A DNA stretch of 64,000 nt, from positions 1 to 64,000 of the IMG/VR virus record IMGVR_UViG_3300042549_002989. One strand, given 5' to 3'. Position 1 is the first letter of the stretch. Every line of letters begins with the position of its first letter. Below, in pieces: positions 6,417 to 55,728 of this stretch. This DNA comes from a virus. Below the pieces are notes generated by a model. That model saw nothing but the letters and a program-made list of their open reading frames with translations, did not search any database and had not been told where the DNA came from. Both the position numbers and the translations under genes were made by a program.

Positions 6417-7294
6417 TGGCTCGTAAAACTGAAAGTGGATTAGTTGTTTCAGATGAAATGGGACTTTCTTATACTCCACAAACTATGCCTACATCGGCCT
6501 TTAGTCATGCATTTCCAAAAGAACCACATACAAATCCTGAAACTGGTAGGACTACCCAACGCAACAGTATGACGCCTGATTGGGACGCTCTCATGCGTAG
6601 CCCAGAAGTTAGAAGGGGTGCAGAAAATTTAGTTGGACTTTATTCCACTGCTGTTAAAAATCCTGAAATGCTTCAGCAAGGCCGTGAATACTATCCAAAA
6701 GAAAATAGACGACTTACACATATTGGTGAACAGTTTAATGAAGTTCGTGCAAAGCGGGGACTACAAACATACTCAGAAGATGACCCTGCCGTTGCTGGTC
6801 TTCTTTTAGCAGGTGCTTTTAGTCAAAATAACACAGAAGCAAACAGAGAACGACTTATTGATAAAACTATTACTACTGGTGATGTTGCAGCACACTTGGG
6901 TACAGAAACTATAAATAATGCAATTAAAACAGGCACTCACGCCATGGATGTTTTTGCAAATATGGGTCAAAATCAAGGCTTAAAACTATACGATTACAGT
7001 GGTTCTATATACCACCCAGGAGCATGGCGTGGAGATTGGCGTGGAGTTAATCGTGGTCCTGGATATACAATTGATCGTCATCAACACGATGCTGTCATGG
7101 GTCAACCAATGGGTGACTTTCAAAGACCACTTTCTAGTAGTGGAACTAATGCTCGCCGTTATCGTTCTTTTCAAGCGGCTCACCTATTAGCACACCATGG
7201 TCCTGGTGGCGCAGAAGAATTGTATGGTCATGGAGATTCTCCTGATACATTCCAAGCCATCACATGGGGACCTTGGCGTGGAGGTTATACCTGA
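6416..7294 (+). CDS. Unknown protein of the packaging/head module, His/Gly-rich C-terminus
   Basis: 292 residues. The central part is alpha-helical (MRSPEVRRGAENLVGLYSTA, DPAVAGLLLAGAFSQNNTEA) and the C-terminal third contains HQHDAVMG, AAHLLAHHGPGGAEELYGHG and WGPWRGG. I do not recognise a catalytic motif. It starts on the stop of the preceding gene and ends just before a membrane protein. A virion-associated role is inferred from position only. Confidence 0.7.
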   Translation: MARKTESGLVVSDEMGLSYTPQTMPTSAFSHAFPKEPHTNPETGRTTQRNSMTPDWDALMRSPEVRRGAENLVGLYSTAVKNPEMLQQGREYYPKENRRLTHIGEQFNEVRAKRGLQTYSEDDPAVAGLLLAGAFSQNNTEANRERLIDKTITTGDVAAHLGTETINNAIKTGTHAMDVFANMGQNQGLKLYDYSGSIYHPGAWRGDWRGVNRGPGYTIDRHQHDAVMGQPMGDFQRPLSSSGTNARRYRSFQAAHLLAHHGPGGAEELYGHGDSPDTFQAITWGPWRGGYT

Positions 7295-33044: not shown

Positions 33045-33060
33045 CCCTATAAACGACTAA

Positions 33061-33173: not shown

Positions 33174-33674
33174 ATGTCAACAAAATTTGGCGGTCCTTTC
33201 CTAGCCTTTCCCCGATGGGTACTGCCCTACCTTCAGGGAGATTCCACGGCAAAAGCAGTCCTTTTGGAGTTGTTGACTTATATGAAAGCCGAGTCCCAGA
33301 GCACCACCACCTCGTACAAATACATTGCTGATCAGGTGGGGTGTGACCGAAGGACTGTCATTCGTGCTATCGCCCGTCTAGAGGCCACAGGAGTGCTCAT
33401 ACGGCGTCATAGAGGCACCAATGGTCACAATATGACCAATAGGTTCATAATCAACTTTAACAACCCTGCTGTGCTTTTGGCTGAGGAGGTAGTGTCACCC
33501 ATGACACTAGGTGGTGACACCCATGACACTACCCCTAGTGACACCAGTGACACTACCCCTAGTGTCACCCATGACACCCAAATAAGAACTAATAACAAGA
33601 GTTATAAAAAGAGTAACCATAACAAGAGACCGATTCAGGACTATGAAGACCTAGAGGTGGATAATCGGATATGA
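33174..33674 (+). CDS. Winged-helix replication initiator-like protein
   Basis: 166 residues behind CGGAGCAACAT. The N-terminal ~100 residues form a winged helix-turn-helix: STAKAVLLELLTYMKAESQS, YIADQVGCDRRTVIRAIARL, EATGVLIRRHRG. The C-terminal ~60 residues are polar with a repeated D-T/H-D-T pattern, coded by the DNA repeat cluster at 33491-33577. First gene of the replication operon. Initiators of theta phages and plasmids often carry the origin within their gene, which fits the repeat cluster. Confidence 0.65.
   Translation: MSTKFGGPFLAFPRWVLPYLQGDSTAKAVLLELLTYMKAESQSTTTSYKYIADQVGCDRRTVIRAIARLEATGVLIRRHRGTNGHNMTNRFIINFNNPAVLLAEEVVSPMTLGGDTHDTTPSDTSDTTPSVTHDTQIRTNNKSYKKSNHNKRPIQDYEDLEVDNRI
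33491..33577. repeat. Iteron-like repeat cluster, candidate replication origin
   Basis: Eight TGACAC or GTGTCA boxes occur in 87 bases: inverted at 33491-33497 and 33561-33567, direct at 33502, 33515, 33524, 33539, 33548 and 33572. The intervals alternate (13, 9, 15, 9 bases). AGTGTCA CCCA TGACACT forms a perfect palindrome. An A/T-rich stretch (33578-33630) follows at once, a plausible unwinding element. Confidence 0.65.
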
Positions 33675-34084
33675 AGGCTCGCCCCGAAGATGATTGGGGT
33701 AAGCCGTTGGGGTCAGACCCCGATGCACCAGCCCCAGTTGCCAAGAAGAAACCCGTCCGTCAAGAAACCTTGACAAGTCTTATTTATTACTTCAACGACA
33801 TTCTCCCACAAGATGTTTGGGGAAACCTTAACTCTCCCGTAAATGCAAAAGCATTGTTGGTTGGATTGCGCAAACTAAAAAATGCTGGGCATAGTATTGC
33901 TGACATCAAGTCAATGATGAATTCATTTGTTGCTGGCTTACAAGTAAAACCATTACCAGTTGGTGTTGCACCATGGCGTGGATTTCTTGCTAATCTTGAC
34001 GCTCTCGCCTCAAAGGTGCAAGCAACCAGTCTTAAGGAGCCTGACACATATGATGACCTCCAACCAGATACACGAATTGTCTAA
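33671..34084 (+). CDS. Replication-operon protein of unknown function
   Basis: 137 residues, ATGA overlap with the initiator-like gene. Acidic/Pro-rich N-terminus, then a helical domain (TLTSLIYYFNDILPQDVWGN, AKALLVGLRKLKNAGHSIAD, IKSMMNSFVAGL) and VAPWRGFLANLDALASKV. Could be a helicase-loading or initiator-partner protein from position. No catalytic motif. Confidence 0.6.
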   Translation: MKARPEDDWGKPLGSDPDAPAPVAKKKPVRQETLTSLIYYFNDILPQDVWGNLNSPVNAKALLVGLRKLKNAGHSIADIKSMMNSFVAGLQVKPLPVGVAPWRGFLANLDALASKVQATSLKEPDTYDDLQPDTRIV

Positions 34085-34099
34085 CAAGGACTTATTGCG

Positions 34100-34753
34100 A
34101 TGAGCGAGTTGCGTAGTCAAAAATACTGGCGTAACCGTGATCCTGAAGAGCGTGTGCGTAACACACACATACCTAAACGCTTTCGCCAAGACACACTAGA
34201 CAACTACAAGACCACAGCAAACAATGCGACCACCTTGCAGTTGATTAACAAATGGCTGGAGTCTGTAGAAACTTATGTTGAAGACGGACAAGGTTTATAC
34301 ATTGTTGGTGGTAGTGGTTCGGGTAAGACACACTTAGCACAAGCAGTTCTTAAGCGTGCTGTGTACAAATACAACTTGTCAGGAATGTTCATTACTGCTG
34401 ACAAGTACATCCAGATGGCATACAACGAAATCAAGTTTGGTGATGAACTTCCTGAAGGTTACGAAGACCCAAACACAATGAAGTACCTACAAGAGACTTT
34501 TGACATTGTGGTTATTGACTCACTTGGTTCAGAGCGACCAACTGACTTTACAAAGCGCACAATTATTTCTTTGATTGAAAGTCGTTACCACGAGAAGTTA
34601 ACCACCATTGTTACAACAACAATGAAACCATCAGCACTTGAACAGATGTATAGCGCAAGTGTTGCGTCAATTATTAAATCATGTTGTTATGTTGCCCCAC
34701 TTAAAGGAGATGACTACCGCATTAGTCAGTGGATTGAAGAGAATGCAGGGTAA
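34100..34753 (+). CDS. DnaC-like helicase loader ATPase
   Basis: 217 residues. A short N-terminal extension (RNRDPEERVRNTHIPKRF) leads to an AAA+ domain: Walker A LYIVGGSGSGKTHLA (about 67-81), Walker B FDIVVIDSLGSERPTDFTKR, a sensor-like TTIVTTTMKPSALEQMY and a C-terminal DYR. The short Leu-Gly-Ser pattern after Walker B is typical of DnaC/IstB-type loaders. It would load the DnaB-like helicase coded at 35183. Confidence 0.85.
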   Translation: MSELRSQKYWRNRDPEERVRNTHIPKRFRQDTLDNYKTTANNATTLQLINKWLESVETYVEDGQGLYIVGGSGSGKTHLAQAVLKRAVYKYNLSGMFITADKYIQMAYNEIKFGDELPEGYEDPNTMKYLQETFDIVVIDSLGSERPTDFTKRTIISLIESRYHEKLTTIVTTTMKPSALEQMYSASVASIIKSCCYVAPLKGDDYRISQWIEENAG

Positions 34754-35183
34754 CGACATATCAGAATTTGCATCCATTGCACAAGGCGTTGTTTTTGATG
34801 GGCTACTTGCGTCACCACCAGAAGGTGGTAGAGCATTTCTTGAATCAGTGCAACGCAGGCGCAACAACTGGGACGCAGTTATTCGTATGTGGGAACCTAA
34901 TGACATGCCATTGAAAGCATTGTCTGATTGTGTTAACCGTTTAGGTCTTGGCACAGATGTTTACACTTTTACACATCCAGATGCTGTGGATGCAATTGAT
35001 CGGTGGTTAATACGCAAAGGTATTAATTGCCCAGTGTATTATTATGAATCACCAGAAATGTTGGAATACGACTTGCGTTTTCAAAGAGCAGTGCGTATCA
35101 TCTACACCTCTGATGAAGAAATTGCTCGCACCCTGGGAATTAGGTCCACTGTTGTTAGCCCTGACAAAGCATGGACACCATAA
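34743..35183 (+). CDS. Unknown replication-operon protein
   Basis: 146 residues from ATG34743 (MQGNDISEFASIAQGVVFDG), which overlaps the end of the loader gene and has GAAGAG upstream. Mixed alpha/beta content (TDVYTFTHPDAVDAIDRWLI, NCPVYYYESPEMLEYDLRFQ, VRIIYTSDEEIARTLGIRST) is like HAD-type folds lacking the catalytic DxD. Function unknown. Confidence 0.6.
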   Translation: MQGNDISEFASIAQGVVFDGLLASPPEGGRAFLESVQRRRNNWDAVIRMWEPNDMPLKALSDCVNRLGLGTDVYTFTHPDAVDAIDRWLIRKGINCPVYYYESPEMLEYDLRFQRAVRIIYTSDEEIARTLGIRSTVVSPDKAWTP

Positions 35184-36439
35184 TGGCAAGTAGCGAGCAT
35201 CTTCTCTTAAGCAAGATAATTCAAACAGCAAGCCTGTCTGAAGTTATTGATGCAGGAGTTCGCCCCGACCATTTCAACTCAGATCTTGCAAATGTATTTA
35301 TTTGGGTGCTTAGTTACTGGCGTGAGTACAGCGCTGTTCCTACACCCCGTGTCATTAAGCAAGAGTACGCAGACCTTCAATTACTAAACGCTGAGGCAGA
35401 ACCATTCCCACGACTCATTGATGAGTTGTTCATGGCATACAAGCACAAGCATCTTGTACTTGCAGTAACTGCGGCTACGCCATCACTTAACAATCAGCAC
35501 ACAGATGAAGCCGCAAAGATTCTTTCTGAAGGATTACAAAAAGCGGCTCTTGAAGTTGCACACCTTCGTGATGTTGACATTATTCAAACTTGGGAAAAGC
35601 GTATGGAGCGTTATCGCATTATGCGAGATACCCCAAACTCATTGCGAGGAATACCATCTGGCTTTGGTGGGCTAGACAAAATTACAGCAGGGTTTCGCCC
35701 ACAGCAGTTGATTACCTTTGTTGGTGAAGCAAAGAAAGGTAAGTCATTGATGACACTCATCATGGCTAATGCGGCTCACAACCACGGCATTACGCCTATG
35801 TATGTTTCTTTTGAAATGAGTATTGAAGAGCAAGAGGCTCGCTATGACGCCATCGTTGCTGGCGTATCCCACACAAGAATTATGCGTGGCGATTTAAGCA
35901 TGCAAGAACTAGAACGAATTGAAAAAGCCATTAAGGTTCGCAAAAACATGCACCCATTTATCATGACCGAAGATGCTTCGTCATTGACAACGGTCAGCGC
36001 AATCGCAGGGAAGATTCAGCAATACCGACCAGGTTTGGTAATTGTTGACGGTGTGTACTTGATGGATGATGAGAACGGTGAACCAAAAGGAAGCCCACAA
36101 GCGCTTACCAATATTACTCGTTCGCTTAAGCGCCTAGCACAGAAGTTTGATGTCCCACTTATCGGAACCACACAGGTACTATCGTGGAAACTTGGCAACA
36201 AGAAGTCTCGTCAGATATCTGCCGATTCAATTGGTTACACATCATCATTTGCTCAAGACTCAGATTTAATCTTGGGTGTTGAGTCAGACCCAGATATTGA
36301 TAACCAAGCAATCGTGCGTGTAGTTCTCGCAAGAACTGCACCTAAAGGTGAGATTCGTATTAAATGGGATTGGGACACAATGGACTTCACTGAAGTCGGA
36401 GAGGAAGGCAAGGATGGCAATGATGGCTGGTACTACTGA
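35183..36439 (+). CDS. Replicative DNA helicase (DnaB-like)
   Basis: 418 residues from ATG35183 (TAATG junction; ATG35171 also in frame). N-terminal helical domain (HLLLSKIIQTASLSEVIDAG) as in DnaB. The RecA-like core has GIPSGFGGLDKITAGFRPQQ, Walker A FVGEAKKGKSLMTL (the Gly-Glu-Ala-Lys-Lys-Gly-Lys-Ser form), MYVSFEMSIEEQEARYDAIV, Walker B LVIVDGVYLMDD and IGTTQVLSW. Hexameric 5'-3' unwinding at the fork. Confidence 0.9.
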   Translation: MASSEHLLLSKIIQTASLSEVIDAGVRPDHFNSDLANVFIWVLSYWREYSAVPTPRVIKQEYADLQLLNAEAEPFPRLIDELFMAYKHKHLVLAVTAATPSLNNQHTDEAAKILSEGLQKAALEVAHLRDVDIIQTWEKRMERYRIMRDTPNSLRGIPSGFGGLDKITAGFRPQQLITFVGEAKKGKSLMTLIMANAAHNHGITPMYVSFEMSIEEQEARYDAIVAGVSHTRIMRGDLSMQELERIEKAIKVRKNMHPFIMTEDASSLTTVSAIAGKIQQYRPGLVIVDGVYLMDDENGEPKGSPQALTNITRSLKRLAQKFDVPLIGTTQVLSWKLGNKKSRQISADSIGYTSSFAQDSDLILGVESDPDIDNQAIVRVVLARTAPKGEIRIKWDWDTMDFTEVGEEGKDGNDGWYY

Positions 36440-37313
36440 TCTTGGAGACTTTCTACTATCTATCGGAGTAGATGTTCGTAGAGCAGGTCAAGAAATTTCT
36501 GCTCGGTGTCCTGTACACCTAGCACGCACAGGTAAAGAAGATAACTCCCCTTCGTGGTCTATGAACGCTGAGACAGGTCTATGGATTTGTTACTCGTGTG
36601 GTGCACGAGGCACTTTGCCACAACTCATTATGGAACTAACAGGTAAAGAAGATTTTGCTGTTACTGAAATGATTATGAACAACAATGTCCAACGGTTGCA
36701 GATGCCTGAATGGGAGCGCCGACCTGAAGTTGACCACCAGATGTACTTGCACTACCCAGAGGTTCCTAAAAACCGTTTAGCAAGTCGCAACATCACAGCA
36801 GAAGCGGCTCGTAAACATGGTCTGCGTTGGAATGATAAAAACAACTCGTGGATTATCCCAATGGTTTCTTCCGAGGGAGATCTATTGGGCTGGCAAGAAA
36901 AAGGATTGAACTCCACATACAACCACCCAACAGGGGTACGCAAAGGTGACACCTTGTTCGGTATTGAACAGTTCAAGAGCACAACAGCAATACTCGTGGA
37001 ATCACCATTAGATGTTGTTCGCTTTGCATCATCCTTTTCTGGCATTCAATGTCTAGGAACTTTTGGCGCACAAATTACAAAGAACCAATTACAACTGGCG
37101 TACAGTGTTGCAGACAAAGTAATTGTTGCGATGGACAATGATGAAGCAGGTATTGCCAGCGCAAAAAAGATATTTAAAGATATGCCATTACTTAAAGGTG
37201 GTGTCTACTGGCTTCACTATGGTCATACAAAAGCAAAAGACCTTGGTGACATGACAGATGACGAGATTGAAATAGCAGTGGTTAACGCTTCCGTAATACC
37301 TTGGTGGCTGTAA
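36414..37313 (+). CDS. DnaG-type primase
   Basis: 299 residues from ATG36414, 8 bases after GAGGAAGG. A CHC2 zinc finger (C32, H35, C59, C62) lies at the N-terminus (RCPVHLARTG, GLWICYSCGARGTLPQLIM). The TOPRIM core has AILVESPLDVVRF (E196) and VIVAMDNDEAG (D241, D243). It makes RNA primers for the polymerase. Shorter than bacterial DnaG: no helicase-interaction domain. Overlaps the helicase and the next gene. Confidence 0.85.
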   Translation: MAMMAGTTDLGDFLLSIGVDVRRAGQEISARCPVHLARTGKEDNSPSWSMNAETGLWICYSCGARGTLPQLIMELTGKEDFAVTEMIMNNNVQRLQMPEWERRPEVDHQMYLHYPEVPKNRLASRNITAEAARKHGLRWNDKNNSWIIPMVSSEGDLLGWQEKGLNSTYNHPTGVRKGDTLFGIEQFKSTTAILVESPLDVVRFASSFSGIQCLGTFGAQITKNQLQLAYSVADKVIVAMDNDEAGIASAKKIFKDMPLLKGGVYWLHYGHTKAKDLGDMTDDEIEIAVVNASVIPWWL

Positions 37314-38857
37314 TGTTTACAGGAAACTTATACCCATTTCAAGAAGAAGCCAGCCAGCGTATGGTTGACAAAGGACAGATGCTTTTAGCCATGGTTATGG
37401 GTGCTGGTAAAACAGTTACCACTATCTCTGCTTTAGAAGAATTGTTTGATTTAGGTGAGTTGGACAGAGTATTGATTGTTGTTCCAAGCAGTCTCAAGTA
37501 TCAGTGGTTACGAGAAATTAAAAAGTTTACAAACTCGTCAGCCTGCGTTATTGACGGCCCACCTAAGCACCGTGAAATTATTTGGCGTTCAGCATTGCGC
37601 TGTAAGTATGTCATTGTCAACCCAGAGACACTTCTTAACGATCAAACTTACTTGACACATCTTGGTGCAAACGCCATAGTAATTGACGAAGCCACCATCA
37701 TTAAGTCTCCTCGTGCCAAGCGTTCTAAGATGCTAAAGAAACTAGGAAAGAAGTTTCAATACAGATTTGCACTTACAGGTCAACCTATTGAAAACAAGCC
37801 AGAAGAACTATTTTCAATAATGGAATTTGTTGACCCCAATGTGCTGGGTCGCTTTGATATCTTTGACCGTACTTTTATTGTGAGGAATCACTACGGCGCT
37901 CCAATTCGTTATCGCAATTTAAGTTCTTTAAATGATTCTCTTTCTGAAGTGATGGTTCGCAAAACTCGTGAAGACATTCAAGACCAACTACCCAATGTGA
38001 TTACGCAGGTAGTGCCCATTCGGTTTGATACTGCTGGTGCGGCAATCTATGAGAAAATATGTAAAGACTTAATTGATGAAATCAATAAAGCAATAACAAG
38101 TCACGGTCAAGGGTTTGACTTGTGGTCACACTACAACGGCGCAGGAGGTAATGATGCGCAAGGTCAAATCATGGCTAGGCTTACTGTACTTCGCATGCTT
38201 TGCGATAATCCTCAGTTGGTGTTGGAATCTGCTAAGGCATATGATGATCCTTCACAGACGACAGAAGGTAGTCAGTACGCTTCAAACATTGTCAAAGCAG
38301 GCTGGCTCCCCCAGACCGTTAAGGCACCCAAACTAGACGCAGTCATAACCTACATTAAGGATGTATTAGATGAAGACCCGAATAACAAAGTGGTTCTATT
38401 CTCGTTCTTTAAAAAGAACCTACGGCTTATCCAGAAAGCAACTGAAGGATTTACGCAAAGCGTACTCTTCATGGGTGGTATGGACGCAAGCCAGAGAGAC
38501 CTTGCCAAGCAAAGATTTGCCACCGATCCTGATGTTCGGCTCTTTCTATCGTCTGATGCGGGAGGTTATGGCGTGGACTTACCACAGGCCAATTACCTTA
38601 TCTCTTACGACCTCCCTTGGTCGGCTGGAAAACTGGACCAAAGAGAAGCCCGAATAATCAGATTATCTTCAACACACCCCCATGTCACAATTACAGCATT
38701 CGTAATGAAGGGATCTATTGAAGAAAGGCAGTATGAAATGCTGATGCAAAAGCGTGGAATTAACTCTGCATTCCTTGATGGAAATTATGACAATCAAGGT
38801 AAGTTTGAACTCTCATTGGGCACCTTGTCCGATTTTTTAAAAAACACAGAGGTATAA
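37313..38857 (+). CDS. SNF2/DEAD-type helicase
   Basis: 514 residues from ATG37313 (TAATG). Superfamily 2 motifs in order: Q-like LYPFQEEASQRM, I MGAGKTVTT, Ia LIVVPSSLKYQWLREIKKF, II VIDEATIIKSPRAKR, III ALTGQPIENKPEELFSIMEF, V VRLFLSSDAGGYGVDLPQAN and VI DLPWSAGKLDQREARIIRL. Phages carry similar enzymes for fork remodelling or recombination. It directly follows primase. Confidence 0.9.
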   Translation: MFTGNLYPFQEEASQRMVDKGQMLLAMVMGAGKTVTTISALEELFDLGELDRVLIVVPSSLKYQWLREIKKFTNSSACVIDGPPKHREIIWRSALRCKYVIVNPETLLNDQTYLTHLGANAIVIDEATIIKSPRAKRSKMLKKLGKKFQYRFALTGQPIENKPEELFSIMEFVDPNVLGRFDIFDRTFIVRNHYGAPIRYRNLSSLNDSLSEVMVRKTREDIQDQLPNVITQVVPIRFDTAGAAIYEKICKDLIDEINKAITSHGQGFDLWSHYNGAGGNDAQGQIMARLTVLRMLCDNPQLVLESAKAYDDPSQTTEGSQYASNIVKAGWLPQTVKAPKLDAVITYIKDVLDEDPNNKVVLFSFFKKNLRLIQKATEGFTQSVLFMGGMDASQRDLAKQRFATDPDVRLFLSSDAGGYGVDLPQANYLISYDLPWSAGKLDQREARIIRLSSTHPHVTITAFVMKGSIEERQYEMLMQKRGINSAFLDGNYDNQGKFELSLGTLSDFLKNTEV

Positions 38858-39939: not shown

Positions 39940-40671
39940 ATGCCAAACTTAGATAACACAAAGGGAAGATGGGATGACGAATTTGAGGACGATGAGCAAG
40001 AGTTCACCGCACCAGCAAAAGCGCCACAATCAACTGGGCTAACACGCACAGCACGACCAGAATCAACAGATTCCGATGAACAAGCGCCACGCAAAGTTGT
40101 GCGCAGTGGTTGGGGCAGTGCAGACCGTACTTCTTCAAGCAGTGATGAGTTTGCAAAGCGTCTTAAAGTTACTGATGAGATTCAAATCATTAAGTTCATT
40201 GAAGACCAACCATACGCTCGTTACCGTCAGCATTGGGTAGAGCGCAAAGGACAGATGTCGTTTACTTGCATTTCCGATGCAGACACCACATGCCCACTCT
40301 GCGAAGCAGGGAATCGCCCATCATGGCGCTTCAACTTCAATGTGGTTCTCTTGACCCCAGGAGAAGAGCCAGTGCTTCGTTCATACGAAGTTGGTGCACG
40401 AGTAATTGACTCACTTAAGAACTTCAACGATCACCCAGCAATGGGACCACTCTCTAAGCACTACTGGACAGTGTCTCGTAGTGGTAAGGGTGCAACCACC
40501 TCAACCAACCACCAGATGGTGCGTGAGACTGACTTGGGTGATTGGAGCCTTGAGGCGCTAACTAAAGAGGAACTTAAGCATTTCTCTGGTACTGCCTACA
40601 CAGACGACATCATCAGAACGCCATCTCGTAAGACATTGGCAGAAGTGGCTCTTGAAGTCCAGTCTGACTGA
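39940..40671 (+). CDS. Single-stranded DNA-binding protein candidate
   Basis: 243 residues behind ACAGGAGAGCAAACA. Acidic/low-complexity N-terminus to about residue 75; a core with YARYRQHWVERKGQMSFTCI, TTCPLCEAGNRPSWRFNFNV and LRSYEVGARVIDSLKNF. The Cys cluster (C...CPLC) plus aromatic strands resembles the zinc-stabilised OB core of T4 gp32-like and actinophage ssDNA-binding proteins. It directly precedes the DNA polymerase. Confidence 0.7.
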   Translation: MPNLDNTKGRWDDEFEDDEQEFTAPAKAPQSTGLTRTARPESTDSDEQAPRKVVRSGWGSADRTSSSSDEFAKRLKVTDEIQIIKFIEDQPYARYRQHWVERKGQMSFTCISDADTTCPLCEAGNRPSWRFNFNVVLLTPGEEPVLRSYEVGARVIDSLKNFNDHPAMGPLSKHYWTVSRSGKGATTSTNHQMVRETDLGDWSLEALTKEELKHFSGTAYTDDIIRTPSRKTLAEVALEVQSD

Positions 40672-42716
40672 TGAACTACAGCGTTGTTAAAACGCTTGAT
40701 GAAGTACGGGAAGCCGTAGCCGTTATTCAAGCCCACGGGTCTTTTGCATTTGATGTGGAGACCCGTGGTAACTTGGAGCGACACCCCGATCTCATTGAGT
40801 TTGTGGACAAGGAGTGGAAAGAACACTTGTCCAAGTTAAAGAGTCCTACACCTGAAATTGCACGAAAGGCTCGTGACATTGTAGAGGCTCGCTACCGTGG
40901 CAATCTTGCCCTTGACCCAAAGCGTAATGAAGTCTTTTGGATTGCATTAGCCACACATGGTCATTCATGGGCAATACCTATGGGTCATAATCTTGGTGTC
41001 ATTTTGATACCAGAAGAAGTTGGTGACGGTACAACTATTCCACCTGTGGGCTACCGTAAGTTGCTTAAAAACGGTGAAGAATCAATAGCGAAATCTCGTT
41101 ATGTGATTCCTGCTGTACATGATGAACCACCAGAGCAGTTAAACCGAACAGAAGTTTTAGAGGTACTGCGTCCTTTGTTCTTTAGCGATCTTATAAAAAT
41201 TGGGCACAATGTTAAGTTTGATGCTCGTTCCATTGGTAAGTATTACGGAGAACTACCACACGGACCATTTGCTGACACTATCTTGATGCAACACATCCTT
41301 GACGAAAACCTAATGAGTTACTCAATGGAACAGGTTGTCAAGAATGTCTACAAGACTAACTCCCATGGTCGTGAAGGCAAGTTGGGCGCAATTATTGACA
41401 GAGTTCCTTTTGACAAAGCGGCTAGGTATGTACACCTTGACGCTCGTTGGACATGGTTGTTGTACACCCACTTATGGCGTGGAATTGCTAACCAAGAAGA
41501 TTTACTGTCAGCATTTGAACTTGACTCAAAGGTGCTTCGTGTCCTCATGGAGATGGAAGATAACGGCATCTTGGTTGACAGTCGTGCCCTTAAGAAATTG
41601 GGTAAGGAACTAGACACAAAACTTCGTGAAATTATCTTGGGCATCAGCGAGTATGCCTTTATTGGTTTTAACCCTGACTCCAACCCACACAAGCAAGCAC
41701 TGTTGTTTAACAAGAAGCGTGAAGGTGGCTTGGCACTAAAGCCAGTTAAGAAGACTGCTAAGGGTGCACCATCTGTAGATGAAGAATCACTACAGAAGTT
41801 AAAGACACATCACCCAGTAGTTCCATTGTTGTTGGAATACTCTGAAACTCAAAAACTAAAAACAACATATGTAGAAAGCCTTATACCAAAGTTAAACCAA
41901 AGCAGGCTTCACCCATCATTTCACCTGCATCGCACTGCTACAGGTCGCTTGTCCTCAAGTAACCCAAACCTTCAGAACATCCCACGATCATCTAGCATTC
42001 GCAGTTTGTTTGTGGCACCTGAAGGACACCAGTTGCTAGTGGCTGACTATGACCAAATTGAACTTCGTGTAATGGCAATGTTCTCACAAGATAAACAAAT
42101 GGTGCGTATCTTTAATAACAATGAAGACATTCACACAGGAGCCGCCGCTCTGTTGTTTAAGAAGACCCAGTCGGAAGTAACTGACGAAGAGCGCCAGATT
42201 GGTAAGGGAGTTAACTTCTTAACAGCGTATGGTGGTGGACCACATAAGTTAGCCAACCTCACAGGAATTGAGGTAGATGATGCTCGCAACATGATTGACC
42301 AGTATTACAAACAGTTTTCTGGGTTGACAGAATGGAAACGGCGCATTATTGAGACAGGTCGCAGAACAGGTTATGTATCCACCATTTCAGGACGCAGACG
42401 CAGATTGACAGACTTGAGTTCATCAGATGATTTCACCCGTTCTCGTGCAGAGCGCCAAGCAGTTAACGCTGTAGTGCAGGGATCAGCGGCTGATATCTGT
42501 AAACAAGCAATGATTGACATTGCAGAGATGTTGAAAGGAACTGGTGCTAACCTTCTAGTACAAGTGCATGACGAACTGGTGGTATCTGTGCCTGAAGACA
42601 TTCTTGAAGACCTTAAGCCAAAGTTCATTACGGCTATGGGACATGACCGAATCATTGATGGCGTGCCATTACTTGTGTCTTGTGACTCTGCCTACAGTTG
42701 GGCAGATGCCAAGTGA
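40671..42716 (+). CDS. polA: DNA polymerase I family A with 3'-5' exonuclease domain
   Basis: 681 residues. Exonuclease motifs FAFDVETRG (D28, E30), IGHNVKFDARSI and HLDARWTWLLY are intact, so proofreading is expected. Polymerase motif A VADYDQIELRVMAMF (about 457), motif B RQIGKGVNFLTAYGGGPHKL with Phe at the O-helix position, motif C VQVHDELVVSV (about 632). There is no 5' nuclease domain. It is the replicative polymerase of this phage. Overlaps the next gene. Confidence 0.95.
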   Translation: MNYSVVKTLDEVREAVAVIQAHGSFAFDVETRGNLERHPDLIEFVDKEWKEHLSKLKSPTPEIARKARDIVEARYRGNLALDPKRNEVFWIALATHGHSWAIPMGHNLGVILIPEEVGDGTTIPPVGYRKLLKNGEESIAKSRYVIPAVHDEPPEQLNRTEVLEVLRPLFFSDLIKIGHNVKFDARSIGKYYGELPHGPFADTILMQHILDENLMSYSMEQVVKNVYKTNSHGREGKLGAIIDRVPFDKAARYVHLDARWTWLLYTHLWRGIANQEDLLSAFELDSKVLRVLMEMEDNGILVDSRALKKLGKELDTKLREIILGISEYAFIGFNPDSNPHKQALLFNKKREGGLALKPVKKTAKGAPSVDEESLQKLKTHHPVVPLLLEYSETQKLKTTYVESLIPKLNQSRLHPSFHLHRTATGRLSSSNPNLQNIPRSSSIRSLFVAPEGHQLLVADYDQIELRVMAMFSQDKQMVRIFNNNEDIHTGAAALLFKKTQSEVTDEERQIGKGVNFLTAYGGGPHKLANLTGIEVDDARNMIDQYYKQFSGLTEWKRRIIETGRRTGYVSTISGRRRRLTDLSSSDDFTRSRAERQAVNAVVQGSAADICKQAMIDIAEMLKGTGANLLVQVHDELVVSVPEDILEDLKPKFITAMGHDRIIDGVPLLVSCDSAYSWADAK

Positions 42717-43063: not shown

Positions 43064-43448
43064 CTGGTGGTCAAAAAAACTTGTTGGGCAACAACCAACA
43101 CCACAGAGGACTTACCAAACTCCACCTGTATCCCCACCGATGACCATACCTATGCAATCACCTCAACAACAGGCGCCTGCACAGCAACAGTCTGGTAGAC
43201 AAGACCTTCTTGATCCGTCAAGAGCACCCACGGACAACATCACTATGGGTGAAGCACTTCGTTTGTGGCAAGGTGGGGAAGCGATGCGCAAAGAAGGTAA
43301 CATGTCCTGCCCTGACTGTGGAAGCATTTATGTATTCTCCCGTACAGGCAGGGGACACAACACAATGGTTAACGGAGCCAGTCCAGCACCACGCTGTTAT
43401 GAGTGTGGTTGGAATGGAATGTATGACCAAGCACAACCAAGAGGATAA
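43056..43448 (+). CDS. Zinc-ribbon protein
   Basis: 130 residues from ATG43056. A Pro/Gln-rich disordered N-terminus (TPPVSPPMTIPMQSPQQQAP) is followed by two knuckles, MSCPDCGSIYVF and RCYECGWNGMYD, in a zinc ribbon. It lies between polymerase and RecA; a DNA- or protein-binding adaptor is likely. It overlaps the previous gene by eight bases. Confidence 0.6.
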   Translation: MSDWWSKKLVGQQPTPQRTYQTPPVSPPMTIPMQSPQQQAPAQQQSGRQDLLDPSRAPTDNITMGEALRLWQGGEAMRKEGNMSCPDCGSIYVFSRTGRGHNTMVNGASPAPRCYECGWNGMYDQAQPRG

Positions 43449-43449
43449 A

Positions 43450-44469
43450 ATGGCAGACTACGAATCACTACAATCAATAATTGCATCTATTAACAAGAAG
43501 AGTGGGGCAGGAAGCATTGTCCGTGGCTCTGACATTCGTGAGATGATCCCTCGCATTACAACAGGTGTATTGTCATACGACCTTATGCTTGGGGGTGGCT
43601 GGCCTGTAAACCAATGGAGTGAAATCATTGGTGAAGAGTCATCAGGTAAGACTGCTATGGCATACAAGACAATTGCGGCTAACCAAGCACTTGACCCTGA
43701 GTTCTGCGCTTTATGGATTGCGGCTGAAGACTTCGTGCCTGACTATGCAAAATCAATTGGTGTAGACCTTGACCGTCTTTGGATTGTTGAGAACAACATC
43801 ATGGAGCAGGTGTATGACCTTGCTATTCGTGCATTGGACAACCGTGCTGTTGACATGATTGTTATTGACTCATTGCCTGCTCTTATTCCAGACGCAGAAG
43901 CAGAGAAGATGATGGAAGAGTTCACCATGGGTCTTGGTGCTCGTCTTACTGGAAAGTTCTTCCGTAAGTCCTCTAAGTCACAGAAGCGCTCTCTTGTTGA
44001 TGAAGATCGTGGGTGTACAGGTCTTATCATTAACCAATGGCGTGAGAAGATTGGTGTCATGTGGGGAGACAATCGCACAACACCAGGTGGCAAGGCAAAG
44101 AACTTCCATTACTTCTGCCGTGTAGAAGTTAAGCGTGATGAGTGGCTCAAAGAGAAAGACGAAACTGTGGGTCAAACCATCAAGGGTCGTACTATTAAGA
44201 ACAAGACACACCGTCCTCAACAGAGTGCCGTTGTTGACTTCTACTTCACAGATTCAGAACACTTTTCATTTGGTTCATTTGATGTTATTAAAGACATGGT
44301 GAATATTGGTATTGCATCTGGTCTCATTGAGCGTGCAGGTGCATTTTACTCGTATGACGGACAACGCTGGCAAGGTAAAGAAAAAGTGCTAGACGGTATC
44401 CGTGAGGATCTTGACTTACAAGCCAAACTACACGATGAAGTGTTTAACAAATACGGTATTGAATCATGA
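43450..44469 (+). CDS. recA: RecA-like recombinase
   Basis: 339 residues from ATG43450, close behind GAGGATAAA. Core: Walker A EIIGEESSGKTAMAYK (61-68), FCALWIAAEDFVPDYAKSIG, MIVIDSLPALIPDAEAEKMM, a loop region LGARLTGKFFRK and TGLIINQWREKIGVMWGDNR with a Gly/Thr-rich L2-like segment NRTTPGGKAKNF. It catalyses strand exchange for recombination-dependent replication and repair. Confidence 0.9.
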   Translation: MADYESLQSIIASINKKSGAGSIVRGSDIREMIPRITTGVLSYDLMLGGGWPVNQWSEIIGEESSGKTAMAYKTIAANQALDPEFCALWIAAEDFVPDYAKSIGVDLDRLWIVENNIMEQVYDLAIRALDNRAVDMIVIDSLPALIPDAEAEKMMEEFTMGLGARLTGKFFRKSSKSQKRSLVDEDRGCTGLIINQWREKIGVMWGDNRTTPGGKAKNFHYFCRVEVKRDEWLKEKDETVGQTIKGRTIKNKTHRPQQSAVVDFYFTDSEHFSFGSFDVIKDMVNIGIASGLIERAGAFYSYDGQRWQGKEKVLDGIREDLDLQAKLHDEVFNKYGIES

Positions 44470-44798
44470 CATTCGGCGCTGATGAAAAGCGCAGTATCAT
44501 GAAGCAATCTAAGAAGCAGGAACAGCGTACTGCCAACACTTACAAAGGTAGTCGCAATGCTGGTTCAGGTAGTGGTTGGTTGCGAAAGAATGATGTTCGT
44601 TCTATAGAGTTTTTATTTGAAAACAAACTGACTATTAATAAGAAATCAATTACCTTAAAAGAAATTGACCTTCGTGAATTAATAGCGCGAGCCATTACAG
44701 AAGACCGTACCCCTGTGTTGCAGTTTGATCTTGCTGGGCGTAGGTATGTTGTTTTAACCGAAGACGACTTTGTAGAAATGATTGGTAAAAATGATTAA
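44466..44798 (+). CDS. Holliday-junction resolvase-like nuclease
   Basis: 110 residues. SKKQEQRTANTYKGSRNAGS, GSGWLRKNDVRSIEFLFENK and VLQFDLAGRRYVVLTEDDFV match a phage family of small PD-(D/E)XK endonucleases; D of NDVRS and E-x-K of FENK are the expected catalytic residues. Many phages code this beside recA. It overlaps recA by four bases and the next gene by eight. Confidence 0.7.
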   Translation: MTFGADEKRSIMKQSKKQEQRTANTYKGSRNAGSGSGWLRKNDVRSIEFLFENKLTINKKSITLKEIDLRELIARAITEDRTPVLQFDLAGRRYVVLTEDDFVEMIGKND

Positions 44799-45690
44799 GC
44801 CAGAGGACATGAAGCGCCTATTAAACAGCCCCTACAGGCTCCTAGCGCCCGTAGAACGCCTTCTGTTGGAGAACAACGCTAGAACCACTGACGAGCGTGA
44901 CAGCCTCCACCTACACCCTTCTGAGATCTGTAAGAAGGATTGGTGCCCTCGTTCATCATGGTACAAAATCAAGGGCTACCCAGAACCTATTGAGTCGTTC
45001 ACTCTTCAACGATTAAACATCTTTGCTGAAGGTCATCTTATTCACCAGAAGTGGCAGAACTGGTTGACTGAAGCAGGTGTAATGGAAGCCGTTGAAGTTC
45101 CTGTGATTGATGAAGACCATTTGATTATGGGACACGCTGATGGAATCATTAGCGACAAGAATGGTCGTGCAGTTCTTGAGATTAAAAGTCTTGGCGTAGG
45201 AACCATCCGTATGGAAGATTACGGATTGTTTGCTCCTTACGGTAAAAAAGAAATAACCATTGATGAATTGTGGAATCGCATTAAGAAACCGTTTGATTCA
45301 CATGTTCGTCAAACACAGTTGTACATGCACTGTCTCGGTATACATGAAGCATTGATTTTGTACGAATGGAAAGCAACTCAAGATGTCAAAGAGTTTTCTA
45401 TTCAGTTCCAACCCGATATAGTTGATGGCATCCTTGCTTCGTGCCACACAGTGGTTCGTGCATTAGAAGATAAAGCACCACCAGAGAGACCTACATGGTT
45501 GTCTCAGGATCATCGTGTTTGTAAAAATTGTAAATTCAAGAAGGAGTGTTGGAGTGACACGAATAGTACCGATGAATCGTCCAGTAGACCCCGTGGTAGC
45601 GAAGTTCCAACAGAAGTTCGGGTTACCAGAGCGTCCAGTGTCGGAGATTCCGTCACTTCCCAATTTCCTAGACGAGTTACCAGACAATAA
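44791..45690 (+). CDS. Cas4/RecB-like exonuclease
   Basis: 299 residues from ATG44791. PD-(D/E)XK core: IFAEGHLIHQKWQNWL, IMGHADGIISDKNGRAVLEI KSLG (Asp, Glu-x-Lys) and QTQLYMHCLGIHEALILYEW. Cysteines SEICKKDWC at the N-terminus and CKNCKFKKECW at the C-terminus fit a 4Fe-4S cluster as in Cas4/AddB-type nucleases. It probably resects DNA ends for RecA. The last ~40 residues are disordered and overlap the next gene. Confidence 0.8.
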   Translation: MIKPEDMKRLLNSPYRLLAPVERLLLENNARTTDERDSLHLHPSEICKKDWCPRSSWYKIKGYPEPIESFTLQRLNIFAEGHLIHQKWQNWLTEAGVMEAVEVPVIDEDHLIMGHADGIISDKNGRAVLEIKSLGVGTIRMEDYGLFAPYGKKEITIDELWNRIKKPFDSHVRQTQLYMHCLGIHEALILYEWKATQDVKEFSIQFQPDIVDGILASCHTVVRALEDKAPPERPTWLSQDHRVCKNCKFKKECWSDTNSTDESSSRPRGSEVPTEVRVTRASSVGDSVTSQFPRRVTRQ

Positions 45691-54112: not shown

Positions 54113-54292
54113 GTGGCAAGCCGTCCTTTCATTAATCAGGTTCGTATAGCGTTAGTTATTACGCAGTCTTTATTGCGCAAAGCGATCCAAGACAGGGACA
54201 TACCTGTTAATGAAGGTGATGCTGTGTTAACTCATCTTGACGATTCTTTGGATATTATTCGTCCACACATTAAGAAACAGGACAAGATTTGA
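54113..54292 (+). CDS. Small helical protein
   Basis: 59 residues from GTG54113: VASRPFINQVRIALVITQSL, LRKAIQDRDIPVNEGDAVLT, HLDDSLDIIRPHIKK. Two amphipathic helices. The stop overlaps the TTG start of the next gene. An ATG at 54102 in another frame stops after 15 codons. Confidence 0.6.
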   Translation: MASRPFINQVRIALVITQSLLRKAIQDRDIPVNEGDAVLTHLDDSLDIIRPHIKKQDKI

Positions 54293-55728
54293 AAGTATTT
54301 TTTGGTGGAGCCGAAAAGGGTTCTTACCGTTCACTGCTTCTGAGTGCAGGGGTGGATAAGTTTGCTATTAACCTAACCCACTACGCTGTTCCTAAGCGCA
54401 AAGTTCTTGATCTCGCAACGGTGTTTCAGGGGCATGATATCATCCTCTACACATCAGAGAATGACGAAGACCTATCTCGGTACGACTCATTTGTTCGTGA
54501 ACACATTGATAGTTTGACTTATGTGATTGGACGCCCAGACTACGATGGGGCATGGATGGGTGACAAGTATGTGCCCATCTGGAATGACGGCTCTGACCTA
54601 GAGAGACTGACATGGCTATGTCAGAAGTATGGTCGTGTAGCGATTAGTGACAAGGCAATTACAGGTCGCAATGTGGCTCGTATCGGTCAGATTGCCTTGC
54701 GTTGGGGAACCAACCTCATTGGGCTTACATCCAAGCCAGACATCATTGAGCGTGTCGGCTGGGAGGCTGTAGTAGTGGGTTCATGGTCTAGTGCCGTGCG
54801 CTATGGAGAGACACAGGTGTGGGATGGTCACGCCTTACACAGATACCCAGCACAACAAAAAGAAACTGCCCGTAAGAGACACAGAGCAGACATACAGCGC
54901 TTAGGTGTGGACTACGATGGCGTCATCAACGATGAAGTTGGTGCAGTCGCACACCTTGCTATCCAGTCATGGAAAGCATGGGAAACTAAAAACTTTGGGG
55001 GCTATGACCTTATGAATGACGATGACGAGACAGAGTTTGATGACTCTTCAGAAAGCCAAATCATTATGATTTCGGGTGATAGCGATAGTACCCCAAGTGT
55101 GGCACCAAGGGGTACCAACATTGTTACTAACCCCCCCAACAGACGGCACGCAAACGAAAAAACATTGCTCCCGATTATGGGTATTGACACCATCACTTCA
55201 ATGGGTACTCAAACAGCAGATGAGCACGGAAATGCAATAGAAATTGACCCTGAACAGGTACCAGTTCTTCGCTATAACGCTAACCCATTACGCCAATGCA
55301 ATCATTGTTACTTGGCAAGCCGTTGTCCCCAGTTTCAAGAAAATAGTGAGTGTGCGTTTTCTTTGCCTATTGAGATTCGCACAAAGGATCAACTTCAGTC
55401 TGCACTGCGTGCTCTTGTAGAGATGCAAGTAGGTCGTGTGATGTTTGCTCGCTTCGCAGAAGAACTAGAAGGACAGGGTCTTGACTCCACTCTTTCTGGT
55501 GAGATTGACCGTCTGTTTAATCTAGTTGAGCGCTTTAAGAGCATCAATGACAACAGAGATCTTGTGCGCTTTGAAGTTGAGGCACGAGGCTCTAGTGGCG
55601 TGCTGTCTCGTCTGTTTGGAGCCAAGGCTGGAGACCAAGCACGAATGCTTCCCAATGGTGGTCTAGACCAATCTGGTGCTGACGCCATGTACGCAGACAT
55701 TATTGATTTATCTGACGACACTCGTTGA
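54289..55728 (+). CDS. Large unknown protein with a Cys cluster
   Basis: 479 residues from TTG54289. The N-terminal ~200 residues have a Rossmann-like pattern (MKVFFGGAEKGSYRSLLLSA, DIILYTSENDEDLSRYD, AISDKAITGRNVARIGQIAL). An acidic linker follows, then CNHCYLASRCPQFQENSECA (three Cys plus one) and a helical C-terminus (RVMFARFAEELEGQGLDSTL). The Cys cluster could hold zinc or Fe-S. A DNA- or packaging-related role is open; I do not assign one. Confidence 0.65.
   Translation: MKVFFGGAEKGSYRSLLLSAGVDKFAINLTHYAVPKRKVLDLATVFQGHDIILYTSENDEDLSRYDSFVREHIDSLTYVIGRPDYDGAWMGDKYVPIWNDGSDLERLTWLCQKYGRVAISDKAITGRNVARIGQIALRWGTNLIGLTSKPDIIERVGWEAVVVGSWSSAVRYGETQVWDGHALHRYPAQQKETARKRHRADIQRLGVDYDGVINDEVGAVAHLAIQSWKAWETKNFGGYDLMNDDDETEFDDSSESQIIMISGDSDSTPSVAPRGTNIVTNPPNRRHANEKTLLPIMGIDTITSMGTQTADEHGNAIEIDPEQVPVLRYNANPLRQCNHCYLASRCPQFQENSECAFSLPIEIRTKDQLQSALRALVEMQVGRVMFARFAEELEGQGLDSTLSGEIDRLFNLVERFKSINDNRDLVRFEVEARGSSGVLSRLFGAKAGDQARMLPNGGLDQSGADAMYADIIDLSDDTR

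Follow-up and report, generated by a model that had tools for sequence, protein, structure and literature searches.

The initiator gene and its neighborhood

The window analyzed here, a stretch of 64,000 nucleotides, is part of a 69,194-bp IMG/VR virus record that lacks a terminal repeat and is possibly incomplete. At 33174..33674 on the + strand lies an initiator gene encoding 166 aa. It heads a + strand run that continues with a gene of unknown family (33671..34084; 137 aa), whose product has neither a PHROG nor a Pfam match, and, separated from the initiator by this one small gene, a DnaC-like helicase loader (34100..34753; phrog_50, 2.7e-34; IstB_IS21). Behind these follow a DnaB-like replicative helicase (35171..36439; phrog_19, 4e-58; DnaB_C, 2e-29), a DnaG-like primase (36348..37313; phrog_47, 3e-37; Toprim plus CHC2 zinc finger) and a family A DNA polymerase, PolA (40671..42716; DNA_pol_A, 5e-111), all on the + strand. 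An SNF2-type helicase (37301-38857) belongs to the same run: it stands directly behind the primase, with a slight overlap of the two open reading frames. The initiator gene is thus the first of a replication operon, as a reading made from the sequence alone (hereafter the sequence-only reading) had proposed. Elsewhere in the window, a Cas4-domain exonuclease-like protein (44782-45690) adjoins a UvsX-like recombinase (43210-44469), the two probably forming a phage recombination pair, and a 479-aa protein (54289-55728) matches queuine tRNA-ribosyltransferase (phrog_887, 4e-34), a similarity that points to a possible role in deazaguanine modification of DNA or tRNA.

The initiator matches the Pfam family HTH_36 (PF13730) at 1.1e-10, with 41.5 bits against a curated cut-off of 25. 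Matches to the replication initiation (O-like) families phrog_270, phrog_428 and phrog_391 range from 7e-17 to 3e-14, and O-like PHROGs matched by the protein include 391, 678, 8540 and 345. RepA_N (PF06970) is absent from its Pfam matches at E 0.01: here the similarity is one of fold only. In an AlphaFold2 model (25 relatives) pLDDT is approximately 75-94 over residues 11-100 and below 50 over residues 104-149, which divides the protein into a winged helix (approximately residues 11-100), a disordered linker (104-149) for which the repeats described below code, and a short basic tail. The winged helix claimed for this product by the sequence-only reading is supported both by the HTH_36 match and by the confident prediction. 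Among solved structures, Foldseek matched the model to CodY and MarR-type winged helices and to RepA initiator and Rep-DNA structures (4pt7, 4pql and 5kbj, all among the top solved matches); the top matches among models of viral proteins include the O replication protein of phage Min27. Whole-chain TM-scores are modest, and disorder takes up a third of the chain. A sequence search of the PDB with the initiator returned CodY-type winged helices only.

An array of four dyads within the initiator gene

A sequence scan places eight TGACAC/GTGTCA boxes between 33492 and 33577, in agreement with the eight boxes in 87 bases reported earlier. The boxes make up four 16-bp dyad units that start at 33492, 33514, 33538 and 33562 (spacings of 22, 24 and 24 bp), each laid out as a half-site GTGTC or GTGAC, six bases, and GACAC. 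Iteron 1 (33492..33507; GTGTCACCCATGACAC) lies in reading frame 0 of the initiator gene, while iteron 2 (33514..33529; GTGACACCCATGACAC), iteron 3 (33538..33553; GTGACACCAGTGACAC) and iteron 4 (33562..33577; the same 16-mer as iteron 1) lie in frame 1; no strand is assigned to any of the four. The sequence-only reading had described perfect palindromes at both ends of the array. Iterons 1 and 4 are indeed palindromic, but the palindromes are interrupted, with arms of 7 bp and 6 bp around CCCA; iterons 2 and 3 are imperfect dyads. The array occupies nt 319-404 of the 501-nt gene, where the part coding for the HTH domain stops at approximately nt 300. Across the 69,194-bp record it is the densest cluster of any 6-mer within approximately 90 bp, with eight copies, the runner-up being five copies of CATTGA at 66279.

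Immediately 3' of the array lies the A/T-rich stretch noted previously, a candidate DNA unwinding element (33578..33634, + strand) with 30% GC and, on the + strand, 31 A and 9 T. Its GC content falls in the lowest 2.2% of 57-bp windows and its excess of A over T on the + strand in the top 0.08%. Inside it are three ATAACAAGAG-type repeats (33592..33628, + strand, starting at 33592, 33604 and 33619). Repeats in the AT-rich tract of plasmid RK2 are bound as single strands by the initiator (PMC4081077), and the ATAACAAGAG-type repeats may possibly be single-strand initiator contacts of this kind. Across 34 relatives of the initiator (see below) the 60 nt past the array average 34% GC with an A minus T of 21, and contain 85 copies of CAAGA compared to 27 expected (maximum 42) under synonymous shuffling. 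Repeats of 11-12 nt, of the GAACCATCA / GAACCGTCC / GAACCAGTCA type, were also seen behind the iterons of many initiator genes (loci L209, L130, L107, L202 and L170, and the named phages L252-L270), and these are possibly a common second origin element.

Selection acts on the DNA of the array

The identical 16-mer of units 1 and 4 is read in two frames, as V-S-P-M-T in unit 1 and as V-T-H-D-T in unit 4. The D-T/H-D-T translation given by the sequence-only reading therefore fits part of the array only: it describes units 2 and 4 (DTHDT and VTHDT), and not unit 1, where the frame differs. Over 55 non-redundant HTH genes with at least three boxes, a given box occurs in more than one frame in 48, and each of the five stop-free combinations of box and frame is used. 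When the codons of the initiator gene were shuffled synonymously the best box cluster averaged 2.5, and a cluster of eight was reached in none of 400 shuffles. The 34 non-redundant relatives together contain 133 dyads, compared to a mean of 18.8 and a maximum of 31 in 200 synonymous shuffles. Together with the retention of the array in relatives retrieved without sight of the repeats (34 of 36), these data show that selection acts on the array at the level of DNA, which the sequence-only reading had called plausible.

Conservation in relatives and across collections

Relatives were retrieved with an alignment of the repeat-free N-terminus alone. At least three dyads are present in 34 of 36 non-redundant relatives so obtained (45-100% identity); most have exactly four, spaced 22/24/24, 24/22/24 or 22/24/23, with a common core of GTGTC or GTGAC, six bases, and GACAC or GTCAC. 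The remaining two have fewer than three, one of them on a short ORF. Absence of the repeats from close relatives had been named as an observation that would count against an origin; since 34 of 36 relatives keep the array, the origin reading survives this comparison.

A search that begins with the motif leads to the same proteins. In 2.9 million viral contigs (IMG/VR) the 16-mer GTGTCACCCATGACAC was found in 91 stretches, compared to seven for a permuted palindrome of equal composition. Of 51 non-redundant ORFs beneath the 16-mer (the window's own entry left out), 33 match HTH_36 and 34 match replication-initiator PHROGs; none of the seven control loci has an HTH_36 or replication-initiator ORF. 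A tighter two-unit pattern gave six loci in 85,000 species genomes, five with an HTH ORF: Ensifer, Sinorhizobium, Streptomyces, a Lysobacteraceae MAG and a Planctomycetaceae MAG. Iterons of the GTGTC type turn up in phages of several phyla: they are present at loci from Actinomycetota and from alpha- and gammaproteobacteria, in a planctomycete MAG and in freshwater phages. A scan for three TGACAC in a row served as a source of loci only, because it mixed initiators with low-complexity repeat genes, and a pan-family HTH alignment proved too diverse for scanning the collection. Some loci are arranged otherwise: at L149, L180, L185 and L231 the 16-mer falls within a short ORF that lies some hundred bases from the gene of a 102-aa HTH protein, possibly a split or out-of-gene version of the origin, and at L249 (approximately 6485-6680; a Nitrospira MAG) a TGACAC/GTGTCA cluster occurs in a locus in which no HTH_36 ORF was found, and is possibly a different kind of site.

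Arrays of other sequence are also found in this position. A rule taken from the array – look directly behind the HTH_36 domain – revealed in-gene arrays, of varied sequence, in most of approximately 20 named phages found by protein similarity, whose hosts are Bifidobacterium, Gordonia, Halomonas, Mesorhizobium, Pseudomonas, cyanobacteria and enterobacteria. GTGTCA/GTGACA arrays are present in Bifidobacterium PMBT6, Gordonia DatBoi, E. coli mEp013, Mesorhizobium P1, Halomonas QHHSV-1, Psychrobacter Y8A and Vibrio D77, a share that is biased upward because the search queries themselves carried TGACAC arrays. Pseudomonas D14B has GTGCAA iterons, Pseudanabaena Pam5 has GGGGTCA, and further named phages have GTGAA, ATGGCA, CTGTGC, CCGTGTC and others. 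Among 53 HTH_36 matches in two bacterial phyla, 19 have a significant array of some sequence; two have TGACAC arrays, both in genomes chosen for the motif. Many HTH_36 initiators therefore carry iterons other than GTGTC, and TGACAC as the universal iteron of these initiators was rejected.

Covariation of the recognition helix and the half-site

HTH domains were aligned to that of the initiator, whose recognition helix reads D58-R59-R60-T61. Of 31 genes with GTGNC dyads, 29 have R or S at residue 60, compared to none of seven with GTATC dyads, a contrast for which p = 2.9e-6, a value that ignores kinship and follows an R/S grouping picked after the data were seen. In the GTATC genes residue 60 is P, V, L or N (I in locus L335); R64 is conserved in both groups. 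GTATC half-sites occur in approximately five lineages, each with a recognition helix that differs at R60. The half-site changes five times on the tree, and residue 60 changes in the same direction in three supported independent pairs (sign test not significant). At L335 every half-site has changed together to GTATC/GATAC. Whole GTATC arrays with an altered recognition helix were observed at L335:1785-1985, L440, L443, L446 and L452, and when the predicted GTATC array was sought at a spacing of 23-25 bp, 30 contigs were returned, in 12 of which the array lies behind an HTH domain.

It is possible, although we advance the idea tentatively, that the HTH_36/O-like initiators found in phages and prophages all belong to a single large class, in which the origin is an in-gene array directly behind the winged helix and the iteron can be read from the helix (R or S at residue 60 for GTGNC; P, V, L, I or N for GTATC). 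If so, a small code linking helix to site would predict origins, and origin incompatibility, in many uncultured phages from sequence alone. The covariation also opens the long-standing question of what determines replicon specificity in phages of the lambda type to a direct test, the swap of one residue and one base.

The array as a probable origin of replication

The array, the constraint on its DNA, its conservation, the predicted winged helix, the order of genes and the covariation of helix and site are in evidence, and the layout matches that of oriLambda. The case is strong that the array consists of the iterons of a lambda-O-type origin inside the initiator gene, in line with the candidate origin put forward by the sequence-only reading. 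What we infer is activity: binding, dimerization, melting, recruitment of the loader and firing at the array. According to this model a dimer of the winged-helix N-terminus would occupy each 16-bp dyad, with one subunit on either GTGNC half-site and the recognition helix around D58-R64 (R60, R64) reading the half-site. Four such dimers, approximately two helical turns apart, would wrap the DNA into an O-some, which would melt the A-rich tract on its 3' side (33578-33634); handover to the DnaC-like loader (34100) would allow loading of the phage DnaB helicase (35171), after which primase and PolA would act. Since the origin codes for a disordered linker, its DNA would be free to follow the binding code. 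The C-terminal part of the initiator is much shorter than that of lambda O (299 aa), and for this reason a loader-binding part is not recognizable.

Nucleotide skew, suggested earlier as a check, adds little. There is no GC-skew turning point at 33.5 kb, the skew is uninformative on the origin, and it was dropped as a marker. AT skew has a minimum at 33,050, but this coincides with a boundary between gene modules and, being confounded by the change of module, was not used.

Other functions can be envisaged for the repeats. Given that iteron initiators often autoregulate, and that the array lies within the first gene of the operon, the initiator might bind its own gene as an operator, shutting down transcription of the replication operon or controlling copy number, with replication starting elsewhere. 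However, the array lies 318-404 nt inside the gene and not at a promoter; in most relatives it is followed by an A-rich, GC-poor tract with DNA-level repeats of its own, for which an operator would have no need; and the equivalent position and spacing in lambda correspond to the mapped origin. We consider an operator very unlikely. Palindromic repeat arrays also serve as centromeres, for example parS of mycobacterial prophages (PMC7157519), and a partition or other nucleoprotein site (parS-like, packaging or recombination), recognized by a different protein, might by chance have come to lie in an initiator gene. However, the array accompanies HTH_36 initiators in unrelated phages and in prophage loci, with differing neighbors, and its sequence covaries with the initiator's own recognition helix; we consider this explanation highly improbable.

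Because the repeats encode a disordered linker of low complexity, one may ask whether they lack any function at the level of DNA, and either reflect protein selection for a linker rich in D-T/V-T or are a neutral tandem repeat. But a single DNA unit is read in different frames, dyads exceed those of synonymous shuffles (133 vs. 18.8), and half-sites switch in concert while the peptide does not stay constant. With frame switching and synonymous shuffling both against it, this reading was rejected and has a negligible chance of being correct. An origin inside the initiator gene is thus the reading we prefer. For an uncultured phage group represented by sequence only, this locates the probable origin to within 150 bp.

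Comparison with known origins

Lambda, the shiga toxin (Stx) phages and certain plasmids provide precedents: given lambda O, P27, pPR9 and pSK41, the kind of origin is already known. The literature searched yielded no description of the phage group, its iteron or the covariation, nor of a GTGTC iteron shared among phage initiators. The TGACACC repeats of plasmid pWTY27 mark a transfer site, to which TraA binds, rather than an origin.

The closest parallel is lambda O, in which four annotated ori iterons lie at nt 349-433 (spacings of 20, 24 and 23) ahead of an A-rich tract. Shared with lambda are an N-terminal DNA-binding domain, four interrupted palindromic iterons within the gene approximately 22 bp apart, the A-rich tract on the 3' side, and a loader gene downstream. 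The differences lie in the iteron (GTGNC-N6-GACAC compared to the ATCCCTCAAAACGAGGGA type of lambda), in the initiator (166 aa with an HTH_36 domain, compared to 299 aa) and in the loader, which is DnaC-like here and P in lambda; the phage described here also has its own DnaB, primase and PolA. The arrangement of lambda thus appears in a distant, uncultured phage group whose origin had not been mapped before. The Stx phages P27 and 933W have the lambda-like in-gene layout with six iterons, and in P27 plasmid replication is abolished by silent changes to the iterons in the O gene, which do not alter the O protein (PMC7466680).

Among plasmids, the staphylococcal Rep proteins of pPR9 and pUSA03 share the Pfam family of the DNA-binding domain, and in these the domain and the origin lie together in rep and are exchanged as a unit; in pPR9 the pfam13730 HTH and in-gene origin form a swappable block that replicates (PMC5703833). 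They differ in being plasmids, with a C-terminus of the pSK41 Rep type (PMC5703833). RepA_N plasmids, of which pSK41 has four Rep boxes placed centrally in rep (PMC5703833), have in common with the phage initiator a winged-helix N-terminus, an in-gene origin that encodes the linker, and four boxes, and 4pt7, 4pql and 5kbj are its fold neighbors; they belong to another Pfam family, and their C-terminal domain contacts host DnaG. The iteron plasmids RK2 and F are alike in having iterons together with repeats in an adjacent AT-rich tract (PMC4081077), but their origin lies outside the rep gene, and the single-strand binding known there is proposed here by analogy.
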